Source: Silvibacterium dinghuense (GTDB lineage Bacteria > Acidobacteriota > Terriglobia > Terriglobales > Acidobacteriaceae). Taken from it: DNA of 64,000 nt. A program made the position numbers and the translations under genes. The notes under the pieces were generated by a model that saw only the letters and a list, made by a program, of their open reading frames with translations, was not told the DNA's origin and searched no databases. Location of the stretch: NCBI RefSeq assembly GCF_004123295.1, contig NZ_SDMK01000001.1, forward strand, positions 930,001 to 994,000, in the 5' to 3' direction. Shown here one piece after another: positions 46,709-52,561 of the stretch; the stretch's first letter is position 1; each line of letters opens with the position of its first letter.

Positions 46709-47323
46709 CTACGACAGCTTTGACGTGATCCCCGAACGCCGTACCCACGTACCATTCTGCTTCTCGACATAGACCCACTGGCCGGCGGCGCAGAGATTCG
46801 TGCACCAGTTGTGCACATAGACGAGACCGGCGGACTGCGTGGAGTCAAAGAAAACCTGGCTGACGAAGGTGATGCCGGGGATGCCCTGATATTTCGATGC
46901 GAAATCGGAGCCCATCGCGGGATGGGTGCGGAGGTTGCGATAGTCGGCAACCTGAGAGGCGGTGAAGAGTGCGTAGTCGTGGCTCAGCTGAAACTGGCGG
47001 GTGAGCTGGAAGCGTTGATGACGGCGCCTCTGATAATCGGAAAGAGCCTCATTGAAACCGCGCGGGCTGTCGGGCGGCGCCTTGAGCTGGCCGTCCGGCG
47101 GGATAGCCGGATTCATGTCATCGATGGATACGGTCGTATCGGCAATCGCCCACTGCTTGACCTGATCCGGAGGCAGACTGCGGAAGGGCTCGCCGGGAAG
47201 CAGCAGGGAGTAAATAGCATAGGTGTCAGCAGCGCGCTCAGCAGGGATAGGCTCGAGAGCCGCATCCGCAGCGAGAGAGAGCGGCAGAAACAGCGCGAGG
47301 CAGAAGGCGGCAAAGCGGATCAT
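46709..47323 (-). CDS. Secreted protein of unknown function
   Basis: 204 residues from the ATG at 47323, with GAGGTG 8 bases before it. A signal peptide is seen (FAAFCLALFLPLSLAADA). The mature protein has YSLLLPGEPFRSLPPDQVKQ, a central helical charged part (YQRRRHQRFQLTRQFQLSH) and a C-terminal beta-like domain (GITFVSQVFFDSTQSAGLVY, NWCTNLCAAGQWVYVEK) with a CxxxC. No named family recognised. It may be an enzyme-like or binding protein of the periplasm. Confidence 0.78.
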   Translation of the reverse strand: MIRFAAFCLALFLPLSLAADAALEPIPAERAADTYAIYSLLLPGEPFRSLPPDQVKQWAIADTTVSIDDMNPAIPPDGQLKAPPDSPRGFNEALSDYQRRRHQRFQLTRQFQLSHDYALFTASQVADYRNLRTHPAMGSDFASKYQGIPGITFVSQVFFDSTQSAGLVYVHNWCTNLCAAGQWVYVEKQNGTWVRRSGITSKLS

Positions 47324-47439
47324 CCGGGTGACACCTCTCGGGACACCATCATAGATGCTGCTACGCGGACTGGCCTGCATCCCACGTCACAGAATCGAGA
47401 CATGGGCACCCGGGGTTGTGCTCATAAGCAGACAGCGTA

Positions 47440-47555
47440 TCGTCCCACCCAAGCGGAGCTTGGATGGGGCACCCGTTTCCGATCCACTGCGAAAATCCCA
47501 AATCGCGACCAAAGGTGGCGAGGGCCGAAGGCAAAGGGCCTGGACGGCCAATCCT
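47440..47555. repeat. Dispersed intergenic repeats
   Basis: CCCACCCAAGC at 47444 with GCTTGGATGGG shortly after forms a hairpin shared with 59866-59890. From about 47508, CGCGACCAAAGG, GGGCCGAAGGC and GGGCCTGGACGG recall the blocks at 6585-6720. The gene at 47555 ends within this repeat-rich stretch. Confidence 0.65.
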
Positions 47556-48007
47556 TAGTGCGCCGCCGAATCCCAGGGCGCTCCGGCCTTCTTGGGGCCA
47601 TCGAGGTCGCGGCCCTTTACACGGTCGTACATATACTCATCGCTGACCGAGCCAAGGGACTCGTTATAGAGGCTGGTTTCGCCAGCAATCTCGCCAAACT
47701 CTTCCGAGAATTTATGCTCGGTACGCAGGCGTTCGGCCGTAGCCGGAAACTCGAAGTGGCTGGTACGGAAGAACTTCTGGAATCCGCGATCGAGCACGTA
47801 GGCAATTTCGCCATTAAAAACCAGGCCAGGACGGGCAACCAGCGCCGCGCCTTTGCCGCTGGGGCCGGGAGCGATGATGGCGGCAGCGCCGTACTTCGAA
47901 ACCCGGATTTGGTTTGCGACGCCGGGGACGGGTTGCACATCAAATTGTGAACTGCGGAACTGATTCAGGATCTCGTCGTAGGAGCGCGGTGCGACTTTCT
48001 TCGGCAT
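47555..48007 (-). CDS. Conserved hypothetical protein
   Basis: 150 residues. No signal peptide or membrane segment. Visible phrases are YDEILNQFRSSQFDVQPVPG, AAIIAPGPSGKGAALVARPG, GEIAYVLDRGFQKFF and EEFGEIAGETSLYNESLGSV, an orderly composition typical of a real protein. I do not recognise the family. The position of repeats at its 3' end suggests that the true C terminus may have been altered, but this is speculative. Confidence 0.7.
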   Translation of the reverse strand: MPKKVAPRSYDEILNQFRSSQFDVQPVPGVANQIRVSKYGAAAIIAPGPSGKGAALVARPGLVFNGEIAYVLDRGFQKFFRTSHFEFPATAERLRTEHKFSEEFGEIAGETSLYNESLGSVSDEYMYDRVKGRDLDGPKKAGAPWDSAAH

Positions 48008-48161
48008 AGCTTCTCGAGTCTCGCAGGGGTACCAGTTTTGTGATGCCGGGGCGCCAACGATACACTAAAAGCCGGCGTCCGAGTTCACCAACACTCTCGC
48101 ACAGCGGCAGCATGGGCTGCAACGGAGCGGGAGCAGGAATCAAGGCAGGCCGAAGAAAAGC

Positions 48162-49106
48162 ATGAGTTTGGCGAGCGCTACAACCACATCCCGGCTGGGA
48201 ACACCGCTGCTGGAACGCATCGGCAACACGCCCCTGATTCGTCTCGAGCGTCTGACGGCGCACCTGCCTGGCGTCCAGATTCTGGGCAAGGCCGAATGGG
48301 CGAACCCGGGCGGGTCGGTCAAGGACCGCGCGGCCTCGTCGATTGTTCTCGACGCGCAGGCACGCGGGCTGCTGACGCCGGGCAAGCGGCTGCTGGACGC
48401 AACCAGCGGCAACACCGGCATCGCCTACGCCATGCTCGGTTCGGCCATGGGCTTTGGCGTCACGCTGTGCATGCCGTCGAATGTTTCGCCGGAACGCAAG
48501 CGCATCCTGCAGGCCTACGGCGCGGAGATCGTCTGGACGGAGCCGGGCGATGGCTCGGATGGCGCAATCCGCAAGGCACGCGAGCTGGCTGCGAACGAAG
48601 GCGACAAGTATTTCTACGCCGACCAGTATGGCAACAACGCCAACTGGCAGGCGCACTACCGTACGACAGCAAACGAGATCTGGAAGCAGACCGAAGGACA
48701 GATTACGCACTTCGTCGCCGGCCTGGGCACCAGCGGGACCTTTGTGGGCACCACGCGCCGGCTGAAAGAGCTGAACCCGGCTATCCAGTGCATCTCCATG
48801 CAGCCGGACTCGCCATTCAATGGCCTCGAGGGCCTGAAACACATGGCAACGGCGATCGTGCCTCCCATCTATGACACCACGCTGGCCGACCGCAACGTGG
48901 AGATGGAAACCGAAGCAGCCTATACGATGGCCAAGAAGCTGGGCCGAACCGAGGGCCTGCTGGTCGGAGTCTCCGCCGCCGCCGCAGTAGCAACCAGCCT
49001 GCGCATCGCCGAAGAAGAGGCTGCGAAGGGCAACGAGGCCGTAATCGTGACAATTCTGTGCGATTCGGCGGATAAATATCTGAGTGAAAGGTTCTGGAGC
49101 GAGTAA
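48162..49106 (+). CDS. cysM: Cysteine synthase, CysM type (PLP-dependent)
   Basis: 314 residues. The PLP lysine is Lys54 in NPGGSVKDRAA; TSGNTGIAYA (81-90) binds the substrate carboxylate and GLGTSGTFVGT the phosphate. The segment HMATAIVPPIYD resembles that of Mycobacterium tuberculosis CysM, which takes O-phosphoserine and a protein thiocarboxylate rather than free sulfide. Downstream on the same strand lie a JAMM protease (3 bases later), a ThiS/MoaD-like carrier and moeZ, so this copy is probably the carrier-dependent type. Phosphoserine use is inferred, not shown. Confidence 0.92.
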   Translation: MSLASATTTSRLGTPLLERIGNTPLIRLERLTAHLPGVQILGKAEWANPGGSVKDRAASSIVLDAQARGLLTPGKRLLDATSGNTGIAYAMLGSAMGFGVTLCMPSNVSPERKRILQAYGAEIVWTEPGDGSDGAIRKARELAANEGDKYFYADQYGNNANWQAHYRTTANEIWKQTEGQITHFVAGLGTSGTFVGTTRRLKELNPAIQCISMQPDSPFNGLEGLKHMATAIVPPIYDTTLADRNVEMETEAAYTMAKKLGRTEGLLVGVSAAAAVATSLRIAEEEAAKGNEAVIVTILCDSADKYLSERFWSE

Positions 49107-49109
49107 ATC

Positions 49110-49589
49110 ATGCTGAAGCTGAACGAGCAGGTATATGACGCAATTCGACGCCATGGTGAGGAGACGTATCCCCATGAGTGTTGCGGCGTGCTGCTCGGCC
49201 GCTCCTCGGACGATATCAATGAAGTGGCGGATGCCGTGCGCGCCGGAAACACACGCACGGATTCGGCTCACAACCGCTATCACATTGCCCCGCAGGAGCT
49301 GGTGAAGATTCAGCGCCAGGGCCGTGAGCGCGGGCTGGACATTGTGGGCTTCTACCACTCGCACCCCGATCATCCGGCACAGTGGTCGAAGACGGACTTT
49401 GCCGAGGCGCACTGGCTGGGCTGCTCGTACGTGATTACGGCAGTGGCACAGGGCGTGGCGCAGCAGACGAACTCCTTTCTGCTGACGGGCACGAGCGAAG
49501 AGGATAAGGCGTTTCTGGACGAAGCTATCGTCGTGGCCAACGACGCGGCCGAAAAGGCTGCGAAGGAGCCGGCTGCCGACCGATGTTGA
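49110..49589 (+). CDS. JAMM/MPN metalloprotease (Mec-like, M67 family)
   Basis: 159 residues. The zinc-site motif is complete: Glu23 in YPHECCGVLLG, then His83, His85, Ser93 and Asp96 in GFYHSHPDHPAQWSKTD. In M. tuberculosis, Mec cleaves cysteine from the CysO-cysteine adduct; in Pseudomonas, QbsD trims the tail of carrier QbsE. Here the gene begins 3 bases after cysM and is followed by a carrier whose last residues are Gly-Gly-Cys, so it could do either job. The tail after residue 140 is Ala/Glu-rich. Confidence 0.93.
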   Translation: MLKLNEQVYDAIRRHGEETYPHECCGVLLGRSSDDINEVADAVRAGNTRTDSAHNRYHIAPQELVKIQRQGRERGLDIVGFYHSHPDHPAQWSKTDFAEAHWLGCSYVITAVAQGVAQQTNSFLLTGTSEEDKAFLDEAIVVANDAAEKAAKEPAADRC

Positions 49590-49713
49590 CCGTGCGACGC
49601 AGGCTCCAGCCTGACACACCTCGATATTGGGCTTGATGCCTGCTGACGCTTTTCTCCGTCCTTCTGTCTTTGCAAGGGACGGACCTTACCGATTCGATAA
49701 GGACGACTTTCCC

Positions 49714-49989
49714 ATGAAGATTCATATCCCTACCCCGCTGCGCGTGTATTCGGACAAGCAGGACACGGTCACCGTCTCCGCAACCACCGTCGGCGAAGCG
49801 CTCGAGGCGCTCACCACGCAGCATCCCGACCTCAAGAAGCACCTCTACTCCGAAGAGGGCAAGCTGCGCGCCTTCGTGAACGTCTACCTGAACGACGAAG
49901 ACATCCGCTATCTGCCTGAAAAGGAATCGACCAAGGTCGGCGAGCAGGACGCGCTCTCCATCATCCCCTCCATCGCCGGCGGGTGCTAG
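49714..49989 (+). CDS. cysO: ThiS/MoaD-family sulfur carrier protein (CysO-like) ending Gly-Gly-Cys
   Basis: 91 residues from the ATG at 49714, with AAGGA upstream. Ubiquitin-like beta-grasp fold: MKIHIPTPLRVY, TTVGEALEALTTQHPDL, LRAFVNVYLNDEDIRYL, VGEQDALSIIPSIAGG. Such carriers normally end in free Gly-Gly, which MoeZ adenylates and thiocarboxylates. Here a Cys (residue 91) follows Gly89-Gly90 before the stop codon TAG, so a precursor that needs removal of one residue is likely. The 124-base gap from the JAMM gene has small hairpins but no terminator. CysM, JAMM and MoeZ genes around it support a cysteine-biosynthesis role over molybdopterin or thiamine. Confidence 0.88.
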   Translation: MKIHIPTPLRVYSDKQDTVTVSATTVGEALEALTTQHPDLKKHLYSEEGKLRAFVNVYLNDEDIRYLPEKESTKVGEQDALSIIPSIAGGC

Positions 49990-50147
49990 CCGCACGGGCG
50001 ATTGCGCTTCGCGCGGGACTGACCGTCCAGGCGATTGCGCTTCGCGGGTTTAGGCTGTGCTAAGAGTTTTGCCGCCTCCTGTTAGTCGGCACTGAGATTT
50101 GTCACAGCGATAGGCACACATGCCACTCGCTAGAAGGGATGCAAGAC

Positions 50148-51341
50148 ATGGCAACGACACTGGAAACACCCTCGGCACTGCCCTCGCTGACCAACGCCGA
50201 GATCGGCCGCTACTCGCGCCACCTGATCCTGCCCGATGTGGGCATGGAAGGCCAGCAAAAGCTCAAGGCAGCCAAGGTGCTGTGCGTGGGTACCGGCGGC
50301 CTGGGCGCTCCGATGACCTACTACCTGGCAGCGGCGGGCGTGGGCACCATCGGCCTCGTGGATTTCGACGTAGTGGACGAGAGCAACCTGCAGCGGCAGA
50401 TCATTCACTCGACCAAGGACGTGGGCCGTCCCAAGATCGACTCGGCCGCGGAGAAGCTCACCGCGCTGAACCCCTACGTGAAGATCGTGAAGCACGAGAC
50501 GATGCTGACCAGCGACAACGCGCTCGACATCATCAAGGATTACGACATCGTCGCCGACGGCACGGATAATTTCCCCACACGCTTTCTCGTCAACGACGCC
50601 TGCGTGCTCTCCGGCAAGCCGAATGTGTACGGCTCGATCTTCCGCTTCGAAGGCCAGGCCAGCGTCTTCGCCACTGAGGAAGGCCCCTGCTACCGCTGCC
50701 TCTACCCCGAACCGCCGCCGCCGGGCCTTGTGCCTTCCTGCTCGGAGGGTGGCGTGTTGGGCATTCTGCCCGGCGTCATCGGCGTGATCCAGGCCACTGA
50801 AGTCGTCAAGCTGATCATCGGGAAGGGTGAGCCGCTCATCGGTCGCCTGCTGCTGGCCGACCTGCTGACCATGAACTTCCGCACCCTCAAACTGCGGAAG
50901 AACCCTGACTGCCCGGTCTGCGGCAAGAACCCGACCGTGACCAAATTGATCGATTACCAGCAGTTCTGCGGCATTGTGCCCGAAGCAAAGGTGGAAATAG
51001 TGAACGAACGTCCGACTCAGAATGGCATTCCCCAGATTTCAGCAACCGAACTGAAGCAGAAGCTCGACGCGAAGGAAGACATCTTCGTACTCGATGTGCG
51101 CGAGCCGCACGAGTACCAGATCGCAAGCTTCGGCGGACACCTGATTCCGCTGGGCGAGCTGCCCTCGCGCCTCCATGAGCTGAACAAGGATGCCGAGATC
51201 ATCGTGCACTGCAAGATGGGCGGCCGCAGCCAGAAGGCCTCCGAACTCCTCGCAGCCAACGGCTTCAAGAACGTGACCAACCTGACCGGCGGCATCACCG
51301 CCTGGTCGAACGACGTAGACCCGAGCGTAGCGAAATACTAA
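50148..51341 (+). CDS. moeZ: MoeZ-type adenylyltransferase/sulfurtransferase (ThiF-rhodanese)
   Basis: 397 residues from the ATG at 50148, chosen because AGAAGGG lies 9 bases before it; an ATG three codons earlier has no spacing. The E1-like domain has VLCVGTGGLGAPMTYYLAAA and DFDVVDESNLQRQIIH. Cysteines CYRC and CPVC bind zinc, and Cys198 in VPSCSEGG is in the active crossover loop. A C-terminal rhodanese domain has Cys355 in IVHCKMGGRSQ. It activates the carrier C terminus with ATP and puts sulfur on it. It is the fourth gene of the cysM cluster. Confidence 0.94.
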   Translation: MATTLETPSALPSLTNAEIGRYSRHLILPDVGMEGQQKLKAAKVLCVGTGGLGAPMTYYLAAAGVGTIGLVDFDVVDESNLQRQIIHSTKDVGRPKIDSAAEKLTALNPYVKIVKHETMLTSDNALDIIKDYDIVADGTDNFPTRFLVNDACVLSGKPNVYGSIFRFEGQASVFATEEGPCYRCLYPEPPPPGLVPSCSEGGVLGILPGVIGVIQATEVVKLIIGKGEPLIGRLLLADLLTMNFRTLKLRKNPDCPVCGKNPTVTKLIDYQQFCGIVPEAKVEIVNERPTQNGIPQISATELKQKLDAKEDIFVLDVREPHEYQIASFGGHLIPLGELPSRLHELNKDAEIIVHCKMGGRSQKASELLAANGFKNVTNLTGGITAWSNDVDPSVAKY

Positions 51342-51365
51342 GCACCTGCTTCACGGTAGTAACAG

Positions 51366-51387
51366 ACGGCGCCCTCAGGGGCGCCGT
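51366..51387 (+). terminator. moeZ terminator
   Basis: ACGGCGCCC/GGGCGCCGT with a 4-base loop followed by TTT and then CTG, 24 bases after the moeZ stop. It overlaps the 3' end of the convergent membrane-protein gene. Confidence 0.85.
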
Positions 51388-51863
51388 TTTCTGCTGCGAA
51401 TCATTTGAACAAAGACGACAAGAGCTACCGATGCAATAAGAGCAGCAAGCATGGCGAGATAGCGTGTTGCTTTCAGCGCGAGGAGCAAATCAGCAGCTCC
51501 GCCAAAGATAAGCAATCCGCAGGTATAAGCCAACGCTCCCAGGAGTGCACCGGGCAAGAAAAACAGAGTAAGTGGAAGCTCCTCAAACCAGCGCAACGGC
51601 ATAACCAGCACAGACGGGACACCGATCACCGCCCACCCCAAAAGCGAGAAAATCGCAATAAAGAGTGACAGGATTTCGGTCTCATAGATAGAGCCTGGAC
51701 CGATGGAAGCAGGCAGTCTTATCCCAACTGCAGGACCGAAGACTCGAACGGCAAGCAATACCGCTTGTTGCGCGACATTCCCTGCAATCAAGCCTACAAA
51801 AGAGAAGCCTATCTTTTCCCAGACGTTAGGCCCGCTTCCCTGCTCGTCTGCTGCTTCGTTCAT
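51375..51863 (-). CDS. Membrane protein of unknown function
   Basis: 162 residues from the ATG at 51863, with a strong GGAGGAGG 4 bases upstream. Four hydrophobic segments are seen: IGFSFVGLIAGNVAQQAVLL, EILSLFIAIFSLLGWAVIGV, LTLFFLPGALLGALAYTCGL and LAMLAALIASVALVVFVQMI. The C terminus is basic (RSRKRRP). No family recognised. It starts 15 bases after the TetR gene ends on the same strand and may belong to that transcript. Confidence 0.75.
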   Translation of the reverse strand: MNEAADEQGSGPNVWEKIGFSFVGLIAGNVAQQAVLLAVRVFGPAVGIRLPASIGPGSIYETEILSLFIAIFSLLGWAVIGVPSVLVMPLRWFEELPLTLFFLPGALLGALAYTCGLLIFGGAADLLLALKATRYLAMLAALIASVALVVFVQMIRSRKRRP

Positions 51864-51877
51864 GGAGCCTCCTCCAT

Positions 51878-52561
51878 TCATCCCTCAAATACGTTCTGCA
51901 GCACCTCTCCAGCGATCTTGTGCATCGGCTTCAACAATGGCAGCCCGGCGATCTTGAGTGTCAGCAGCAGCATGCGCAGGGTTCCATCCAAAAGCGCTCC
52001 GGTGCGACGCTGGCCGGGCGAACGGTCATAGACCCAGAAGAGAATCAGACCCATCTGGTAAAGCCAGAGCAGCCGCGGCAAATACGGCAGGATATTCGCG
52101 GGCAGCTTTACCTTCGAGTCCGTGACCGCACGCTCGAAGAAGGCAATGTCGGCATTGCGGATGTCGGCTGTCTCGCTGCTGAAGGGCGAGAGCGGATGCA
52201 ATGGATCGGTGTGTGCAGAGAGTGCGCCAAGCAGCTTGCGGTTGGGCGCAAAGTAAGTCAGCTTCTCCTGGATAAGACCGCGCAGGCGCGCCTCGAGCGT
52301 GCGACTCTCGGCAAGAACGGTGTCGAGCGCAGGCAGCATCTCGGCCTGCACCTGCTCGTAGAAGGCCATAACGATGGCCACCTTCGAAGGAAAGTAATAG
52401 TAGGCGCCGCCGAGCGCGACACCGGCTTCAGTGGAAACTTCGCGCATGGTAGCCGCCTCGAAGCCGCGCTCGCGAAAGACACGGAGCGCAGCCTCGAGAA
52501 TGCGGGCGCGGGTTTCGGCAGACTTCTTTGTCCCGGCAGGAGTGGTCGTCTTCGAAGTCAT
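51878..52561 (-). CDS. TetR family transcriptional regulator
   Basis: 227 residues. The helix-turn-helix is standard: ARILEAALRVFRERGFEAAT, MREVSTEAGVALGGAYYYFPSK. The C-terminal ligand domain (about 75-215) is uninformative. The gene for a small membrane protein ends 5 bases upstream, and the promoter in front of that gene carries two copies of TGAACGCGTTCA, so this protein most likely represses its own operon. Ligand unknown. Confidence 0.93.
   Translation of the reverse strand: MTSKTTTPAGTKKSAETRARILEAALRVFRERGFEAATMREVSTEAGVALGGAYYYFPSKVAIVMAFYEQVQAEMLPALDTVLAESRTLEARLRGLIQEKLTYFAPNRKLLGALSAHTDPLHPLSPFSSETADIRNADIAFFERAVTDSKVKLPANILPYLPRLLWLYQMGLILFWVYDRSPGQRRTGALLDGTLRMLLLTLKIAGLPLLKPMHKIAGEVLQNVFEG

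Follow-up and report, generated by a model that had tools for sequence, protein, structure and literature searches.

A cysteine-operon sulfur carrier of Silvibacterium dinghuense appears to be made with an extra terminal residue for a neighbouring JAMM protease to remove

For adenylation by an E1 enzyme, the C-terminal Gly has to be free. Why should the sulfur carrier of a cysteine operon be encoded with a residue after its Gly-Gly? Capped sulfur carriers are known from single published examples, and QbsE, paired with QbsD, is a carrier with residues after the Gly-Gly. The question is raised here by a stretch of 64,000 nucleotides from S. dinghuense, which we call the window. In the window, genes for cysM, a JAMM protease, a ThiS/MoaD-like carrier and moeZ were found as consecutive plus-strand ORFs at 48162-51341, in the row that the original prediction had described, and the same gene order occurs in 62 of the 79 loci compared. 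It appears that this soil bacterium makes the carrier of its cysteine pathway with an extra end residue, which the neighbouring protease would remove.

The first gene (48162..49106, plus strand) encodes a CysM-like PLP enzyme (PALP, E 4e-68), for which we infer the role of a cysteine synthase with the carrier as sulfur source. Its best NCBIfam match is cysM (348.7 bits, below the cut-off of 394.2), its nearest solved structure is E. coli CysM, and M. tuberculosis CysM was also matched. The second gene (49110..49589, plus strand) encodes a JAMM metalloprotease (Prok-JAB, E 4e-25; 2kcq_A, E 5e-26). The protein reads HEC-CG and HSHP-x6-SKTD, so that the E..CG and HxH...SxxD motif is present, as it is intact in 124 of the 127 JAMM domains examined. 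The only genome-wide Prok-JAB match at E <= 0.001 is this JAMM of the cluster, which is predicted from its sequence to cut the carrier after Gly-Gly. The carrier itself (49714..49989, plus strand; ThiS family, E 1e-10) has 91 aa and the C terminus SIAGG-C. Its top solved relative is 4n6e_B, and the second-best is M. tuberculosis CysO (3dwg_C), whose alignment (E 1e-12) reaches as far as the GG. The last gene (50139..51341, plus strand) encodes a MoeZ-like E1 with a C-terminal rhodanese domain (ThiF, E 1e-84; rhodanese, E 3e-16), the predicted activator of the carrier; it may start instead at the ATG at 50148, as its relatives do (MATT...). Immediately 3' of the carrier stop lie two 24-nt direct repeats with no strand assigned (49990-50013 and 50023-50046; 49990..50046 as a whole). 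Their core, GGCGATTGCGCTTCGCG, was found with at most 2 mismatches at 15 genome sites including these two, and at 5 for the reversed-pattern control.

All members of the CysM-Mec-CysO-MoeZ set are thus encoded, namely a PLP cysteine synthase, a JAMM protease, a ubiquitin-fold carrier with Gly-Gly and a MoeZ-type E1. The carrier as translated does not end at Gly-Gly, so a prior cut would be needed, and its residue after GG beside a motif-intact JAMM gene is the arrangement of a capped sulfur carrier. The last codons are GGC GGG TGC TAG, i.e. Gly (49978-49980), Gly (49981-49983), Cys (49984-49986, plus strand) and stop (49987-49989), exactly as had been read before. The possibility that the Cys is a sequencing error was excluded: five relatives (L032, L035, L037, L063 and L073) share GG-C-stop, and none of 125 carriers in JAMM clusters stops at GG, so the terminal Cys is real.

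To describe the ends of related carriers, we sampled 125 carriers whose gene lies no more than 1.5 kb from one for a JAMM protease, nearly all from Acidobacteriota. All of the 77 that are split from MoeZ are capped, with 1-32 residues, and the remaining 48 run on in frame into MoeZ. The comparison of C termini that the original prediction had proposed therefore yielded no bare Gly-Gly in this sample, and a second, overlapping sample of cluster orthologues, selected regardless of JAMM adjacency, gave 0 of 96. The recount used the fixed GG position rather than the last two residues; by position, an apparent bare end (G097 / L371) is IAGG-G-stop, a one-residue Gly cap, though its final two residues are Gly-Gly. 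It is at this very spot that the closest relatives differ: they carry the caps C, LA, CWPHGH..., R and WD, and Acidipila rosea has a MoeZ fusion. On a MoeZ tree (FastTree, 121 rows), 12 changes between fused and split forms are required, 7 of which are forced by well-supported branches; as the tree is unrooted, which way the changes went can only be inferred. Many caps are probably the carrier-side leftover of a split carrier-MoeZ reading frame. A search of plasmids for the carrier gave 35 matching records, of which 8 were inspected.

Bare ends are possible in the same phylum, since some threonine-synthase-linked carriers (12 of 27) and some others (6 of 28) end at GG. The threonine-linked carriers that are capped lie in fetched stretches without a JAMM match. 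Bare homologues, which would speak against a precursor, are absent from the cluster sample, but the carrier of a Nonomuraea cluster (JAMM-carrier-cysM) does end bare at GG. Since this carrier and M. tuberculosis CysO both end bare, JAMM-linked carriers need no cap. JAMM adjacency and capping are associated by a Fisher statistic that ignores relatedness (p 5.6e-11). The four independent pairs that exist on supported branches give no support to this link, which may therefore merely follow the orthologue group.

We consider it likely that the carrier is a precursor on which the JAMM acts twice, exposing Gly-Gly and later freeing cysteine in a pathway of the CysM-Mec-CysO-MoeZ type. The carrier would be made in an inactive form. 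A cut after Gly-Gly by the JAMM would free it, and in fused forms would free MoeZ too. MoeZ would then adenylate and thiocarboxylate the exposed Gly, CysM, whose substrate beside the thiocarboxylate in this type of pathway is O-phosphoserine, would attach a serine-derived part to the carrier thiocarboxylate, and the same JAMM would cut the Gly-Gly/Cys bond to release cysteine. If the carrier-cysteine adduct is an amide, the untrimmed carrier of the window, whose cap is Cys, would have the covalent structure of the adduct, and a single specificity would suffice for the protease. This double role of one JAMM, the core of the original prediction, is supported: all 125 carriers extend past GG or into MoeZ, the protease motif is nearly always intact, the genome has a sole Prok-JAB protein, and there is a precedent (PMC6006322). 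The maturation reading is well supported. The second part, that the Cys tail mimics the product, fared less well and is weakly supported, because 57 of 77 residues at cap position 1 are not Cys.

Cys directly after GG is nevertheless more common than expected by chance. It occupies cap position 1 in 20 of the 77 split carriers (the others have S, A, R, L, V, G and further residues), against a TGY background of 4.0% per triplet position in carrier-moeZ gaps (320 of 7,935), and in 34 of 84 threonine-linked carriers. Within caps, Cys makes up 82 of 566 residues in the coding frame, and 18 of 552 and 11 of 547 in the other two frames of the same DNA; the rows in these Cys counts are mutually related and so not independent. 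On the MoeZ tree, Cys as first cap residue has been gained or lost in no fewer than 14 changes. The position-1 counts and these changes, with the single Prok-JAB match of the genome, would suit the idea that Cys was selected as the best-cut cap, Gly-Gly-Cys being the standing substrate of the JAMM. We nevertheless find this unlikely. Besides the majority of caps that begin otherwise, the fused forms have A or S first in 39 of 48 cases and Cys in none, the Cys codon is one step from the stop TGA, and the enrichment continues past position 1 (62 of 489 residues), so that position 1 need not be special. Co-variation would be expected in genomes with two carriers, because the second would have to share the same JAMM. 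Among 70 such genomes, the second carrier has Cys in 8 of 16 when the first is Cys-capped and in 24 of 54 when it is not (Fisher p 0.78). A position-1 Cys dictated by the JAMM was accordingly rejected as the main cause.

The cap might also be neutral, trimmed by any peptidase or tolerated by MoeZ, with the bare end missing through history alone. Cap length and sequence do vary freely in most loci, and the lack of support from independent pairs fits as well. But cap lengths 1, 2 and 3 change 14, 12 and 9 times on the MoeZ tree while length zero never occurs, the MoeZ fusions need a cut at the Gly-Gly bond to expose Gly-Gly, and the E1 substrate is the free Gly; we therefore regard a neutral cap as improbable.

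Another explanation, possible but on balance doubtful, is that the Cys codons after Gly-Gly are part or remnant of a poly-Cys stretch, which would slow ribosomes when cysteinyl-tRNA is scarce and so tune moeZ or the operon. Polycysteine small ORFs are cysteine attenuators in mycobacteria (Canestrari 2020, cited in PMC13236596 and PMC9094748). With poly-Cys defined as at least 4 Cys in 7 residues, such runs occur in the carrier-moeZ gap at 17 of 67 loci (shuffle mean 0.4, maximum 3 in 200 shuffles; reverse strand 0) and within 300 nt upstream of cysM at 6 of 65 (shuffle mean 0.43, maximum 3; reverse strand 2). Some are separate small ORFs (MPRYSACCCCCPSCCCR), others are carrier caps (ACCLAGCCCR), and the cysM leaders have, read by eye, a TATAAT/TACAAT box 6-9 bases upstream of GTG/ATG. 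Together, Cys-rich caps and the small poly-Cys ORFs that precede moeZ or cysM suggest cysteine-sensing attenuation in related operons. The window, however, has a single Cys and no poly-Cys run either between carrier and moeZ or ahead of cysM, and thus lacks the small Cys-run ORF upstream of a sulfur gene that defines such an attenuator. Poly-Cys is found in only 1 of 46 JAMM-carrier gaps (shuffles 0.22), similar runs also arise by chance in non-coding frames in the remainder of these loci (36 on the plus and 25 on the minus strand), and 44 of 67 loci have no run at either site, provided that the two lists do not overlap.

A search of 47000-52000 against Rfam gave nothing above the gathering score and one sub-threshold match. 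The pattern TGYTGYTGYTGY has 69 sites in the genome (37 for its reversed-pattern control), 30 of which were viewed as loci and six re-inspected with flanks, unannotated; no clear poly-Cys leader was seen among them. The DNA pattern of the cysM leader was sought in 200 genomes of the family, themselves a draw from a larger group; it matched in 2 genomes, in neither beside pathway genes, so this leader is rare in the genomes drawn. Gap and leader RNAs were folded as single sequences. By eye, GGGCTTGTCC in the leader ORF appears to pair with a downstream GACAAGC copy in 5 of 6 alignment rows.

The stretch after Gly-Gly may even be dual, an inhibitory propeptide removed by the JAMM (in the extreme case MoeZ itself) whose Cys codons also serve as a cysteine-responsive brake on translation towards moeZ. 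We hold this to be unlikely; if true, carrier maturation and end-product feedback would be joined in one short codon stretch in Acidobacteriota. In the sampled Acidobacteriota the cysteine-operon carrier invariably has a cap or is joined to the enzyme presumed to activate it, and the two states have switched repeatedly. Under the favoured reading, a precursor matured by the JAMM, this would parallel in bacteria the way ubiquitin is made and would amount to a natural experiment on the reason for making a carrier locked, and it makes testable whether one JAMM serves both maturation and release and what the cap does in control. Besides, Cys-rich caps together with poly-Cys ORFs suggest that cysteine operons of organisms remote from mycobacteria may sense the amino acid by translation.

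The M. tuberculosis CysM-Mec-CysO-MoeZ pathway to cysteine uses the same four protein families (PMC3227635), but there CysO is bare at GG, while in the window the carrier has a cap and the four genes lie side by side. Iyer et al. 2006 list for Acidobacteria (Susi) an operon, their type 4c, with ThiS/MoaD, E1-rhodanese, JAB and cysteine synthase, and a Ub-like domain fused to the N-terminus of a ThiF-type E1 is also reported there (PMC1779556); the passages describing type 4c mention neither caps, nor carrier fusion to the E1-rhodanese of the cysteine operon, nor poly-Cys ORFs. Capped carriers that require a protease are in print (PMC6006322): PtmS2 (MV) and PtmS3 (a single Cys) with the JAMM PtmS1, and QbsE with QbsD, share with the window the residues after GG, the JAMM protease and the MoeZ-type activator. 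PtmS3 has GG plus one Cys exactly like the window carrier, so the GG-Cys cap itself is already published. These systems serve natural-product thiocarboxylates in Streptomyces and Pseudomonas, whereas the window has one cysteine operon with CysM, and its relatives fuse carrier and MoeZ. As in our proposal, a ubiquitin-fold carrier made as a fusion or precursor has its Gly-Gly freed by a JAMM in MoaD-MoaE, cut by DRJAMM to the C-terminal Gly (PMC8832034), and in archaeal ubiquitin, trimmed at Gly-Gly by CsRpn11 (PMC6043591). Unlike in these two cases, the fusion partner in relatives of the window is MoeZ, the presumed activator of the carrier.

In the window of Silvibacterium dinghuense, the four genes originally predicted to lie in a row were confirmed by open reading frames and clear family matches, all on the plus strand: a CysM-like gene (48162-49106), a JAMM protease gene (49110-49589), a ThiS/MoaD-like carrier gene (49714-49989) and a MoeZ-like gene (50139-51341). 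The predicted Gly-Gly-Cys end of the carrier is also correct, as its last codons are GGC GGG TGC TAG. Among solved structures, it matches best 4n6e_B and CysO of M. tuberculosis; the CysO chain stops at the Gly-Gly aligned with that of the window carrier. Two 24-nt direct repeats (49990-50046) begin directly 3' of the carrier stop, and their core has 15 genomic places within 2 mismatches (both window copies counted) versus 5 for a control. In two relatives (L034 and L036), the cap, namely the residues after Gly-Gly, runs into DNA resembling these repeats.

We collected relatives from one scan of genome contigs (79 loci, 62 with the order cysM-JAMM-carrier-moeZ) and from whole-genome searches of partly overlapping sets of 200 family and 297 phylum genomes, from which 100 stretches were taken with flanks where the contig permitted, plus 80 short stretches. 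A carrier was regarded as JAMM-linked when it had a JAMM gene in the same orientation no more than 1.5 kb away, which gave 125 carriers (the window, 64 from the contig scan and 60 from whole genomes), 116 of them with cysM within 3 kb. Two loci with an unreadable end (L108, L109) were left out, L110 has no row, and a few genomes are counted twice (L105 and L164 are identical). For three of the 125, the record title names another group, namely Gemmatimonadota for L107, Verrucomicrobia for L069 and Betaproteobacteria for L099. The tree places L069 and L099 with the Acidobacteriota, and these two may be mis-binned.

We read the carrier C-terminal ends for homologues that stop bare at Gly-Gly, and it turned out that none of the 125 JAMM-linked carriers does so: 77 are capped and 48 are fused to MoeZ, although the rows in all samples are related and the counts are not independent of kinship. 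The tails after Gly-Gly are of every sort, for example C, R, L, Y, K, WD, LA and CWPHGHTRPSAASVMRT, and in fused forms MoeZ follows directly in frame. Among threonine-synthase-linked carriers 12 are bare and 15 capped, and the remaining carriers comprise 6 bare, 15 capped and 7 fused. In a second, overlapping sample, none of 96 cluster orthologues was bare and 14 were fused, while 9 of the 84 threonine-linked carriers had a bare end. JAMM-linked carriers differ from the others in capping (p 5.6e-11), but orthologue group is a confounder here, and independent pairs (4 pairs) do not support the link. On an unrooted MoeZ tree (FastTree, 121 rows), the fused or split state requires 12 changes, 7 of which are forced by well-supported branches, while cap lengths of exactly 1, 2 and 3 change 14, 12 and 9 times and length zero is absent. 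As the tree is unrooted, it is from the distribution of fused forms beyond the family that we infer fusion to be the older state.

In a plasmid survey (8 of 35 records with a carrier match opened), the carrier that Nonomuraea encodes between JAMM and cysM genes stops bare at Gly-Gly, whereas that of an Aliarcobacter cysM-JAMM-carrier cluster has a one-residue cap, Ile. Five further plasmid-borne carriers with no JAMM match in the stretch have bare ends, and a Salarchaeum SAMP1 has a 10-residue tail. Therefore, capping is a strong habit of the cluster in Acidobacteriota, not a law. The Aliarcobacter cibarius plasmid pACIB carries a cysM-JAMM-carrier-MoeZ cluster. There, an IS110 gene separates JAMM from the carrier, an IS5 gene separates the E1 part from the rhodanese part, and the cluster adjoins an encapsulin with cysteine desulfurase cargo.

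In a fused carrier-MoeZ protein, the E1 chemistry is unable to activate the carrier Gly-Gly before a cut. The JAMM motif is intact in 124 of 127 domains; two of the exceptions read ECGG for E.CG and one is without the N-terminal part in frame. In the published pathway, Mec hydrolyses the CysO-cysteine adduct (PMC3227635). A one-residue Cys cap would therefore be the same as the adduct, provided that the latter is an amide arising by an S-to-N shift. Cys opens 20 of the 77 cluster caps and directly follows Gly-Gly in 34 of the 84 threonine-linked carriers, well over the background of 4%, and the Cys share across the whole cap is 14.5% in the coding frame versus 3.3% and 2.0% in the other frames. 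However, of the 48 fused forms 39 have Ala or Ser right after Gly-Gly, and whether one carrier of a genome has Cys there says nothing about its second carrier. Of the original prediction that the JAMM protein trims the carrier and then releases cysteine, with the Cys tail mimicking the product, predicted maturation of the carrier stands as likely, but the Cys itself is not the key in most relatives. The window's genome has a single Prok-JAB match and three cysKM-family matches: the window's CysM just under the cut-off, one weak, and one above the cut-off outside the cluster (C1:841457-842335). The carrier route is therefore probably a second cysteine route in this genome.

The most surprising by-product is a poly-Cys element (at least 4 Cys in 7 residues). 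Such runs are encoded in 17 of 67 carrier-moeZ gaps (0.4 expected from shuffles), either as a separate ORF or as the carrier's own cap, in 6 of 65 stretches upstream of cysM (0.43 expected) and in 1 of 46 JAMM-carrier gaps (0.22 expected); the window has none in its carrier-moeZ gap or upstream of cysM. Five of the six cysM leaders belong to one six-row clade of the MoeZ tree, the sixth (L083) being off the tree. Their presumed starts lie 6-9 bases 3' of a TATAAT or TACAAT box, judged by eye, and no poly-Cys was detected in the carrier-moeZ gaps of these loci. These observations suggest a cysteine-responsive attenuator whose position differs between lineages. Work by Canestrari in 2020 reportedly describes polycysteine ORFs as cysteine attenuators in mycobacteria.

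The six leader ORFs (L051, L057, L064, L075, L078, L083) are small, apparently leaderless and about 130-180 nt upstream of cysM; they encode CCCC(C), followed in most by SSRACPVELS, and contain a conserved GGCYTGTCC, with a GACAAG copy downstream in 5 of 6. Separate gap ORFs, for example MPRYSACCCCCPSCCCR, occur in L053, L054, L081, L090, L061, L067 and L072 and end 43-71 nt upstream of the MoeZ match start. Besides, inverted repeats judged by eye surround the Cys-coding stretch between carrier and moeZ in L055, L060 and L095, such as GGATTGTCGAATT / AATTCGACAATCC in L060.

The window's genome contains a second ThiS/MoaD-like carrier (C1:798643-800176, minus strand; loci L002 and L240, relatives L241-L309), which adjoins one of three clear threonine-synthase-like genes (100%, 36% and 35% identity, with two further weak matches). 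Its cap has a Cys-rich motif, CCSYCGxExCxC, conserved in 21 of 70 loci including this genome, which perhaps binds metal. Our guess is that the pair forms a carrier-fed homocysteine route from O-phosphohomoserine.

Wolinella HcyS and QbsE are among the comparisons for such carriers. In the open-access literature searched, we found no report of carrier-MoeZ/MoeB fusions, and nothing on capped carriers beyond PMC6006322 except an unrelated review. The operon type, with an acidobacterium among its examples, and Ub-like domains fused to ThiF-type E1 proteins are already in print (PMC1779556), and PMC4326299 deals with MoaX cleavage. In conclusion, the window carrier resembles PtmS3, which ends in Gly-Gly and a single Cys (PMC6006322), and capping without exception in our sample together with repeated fusion to the activating enzyme is a new variation on known capped carriers.
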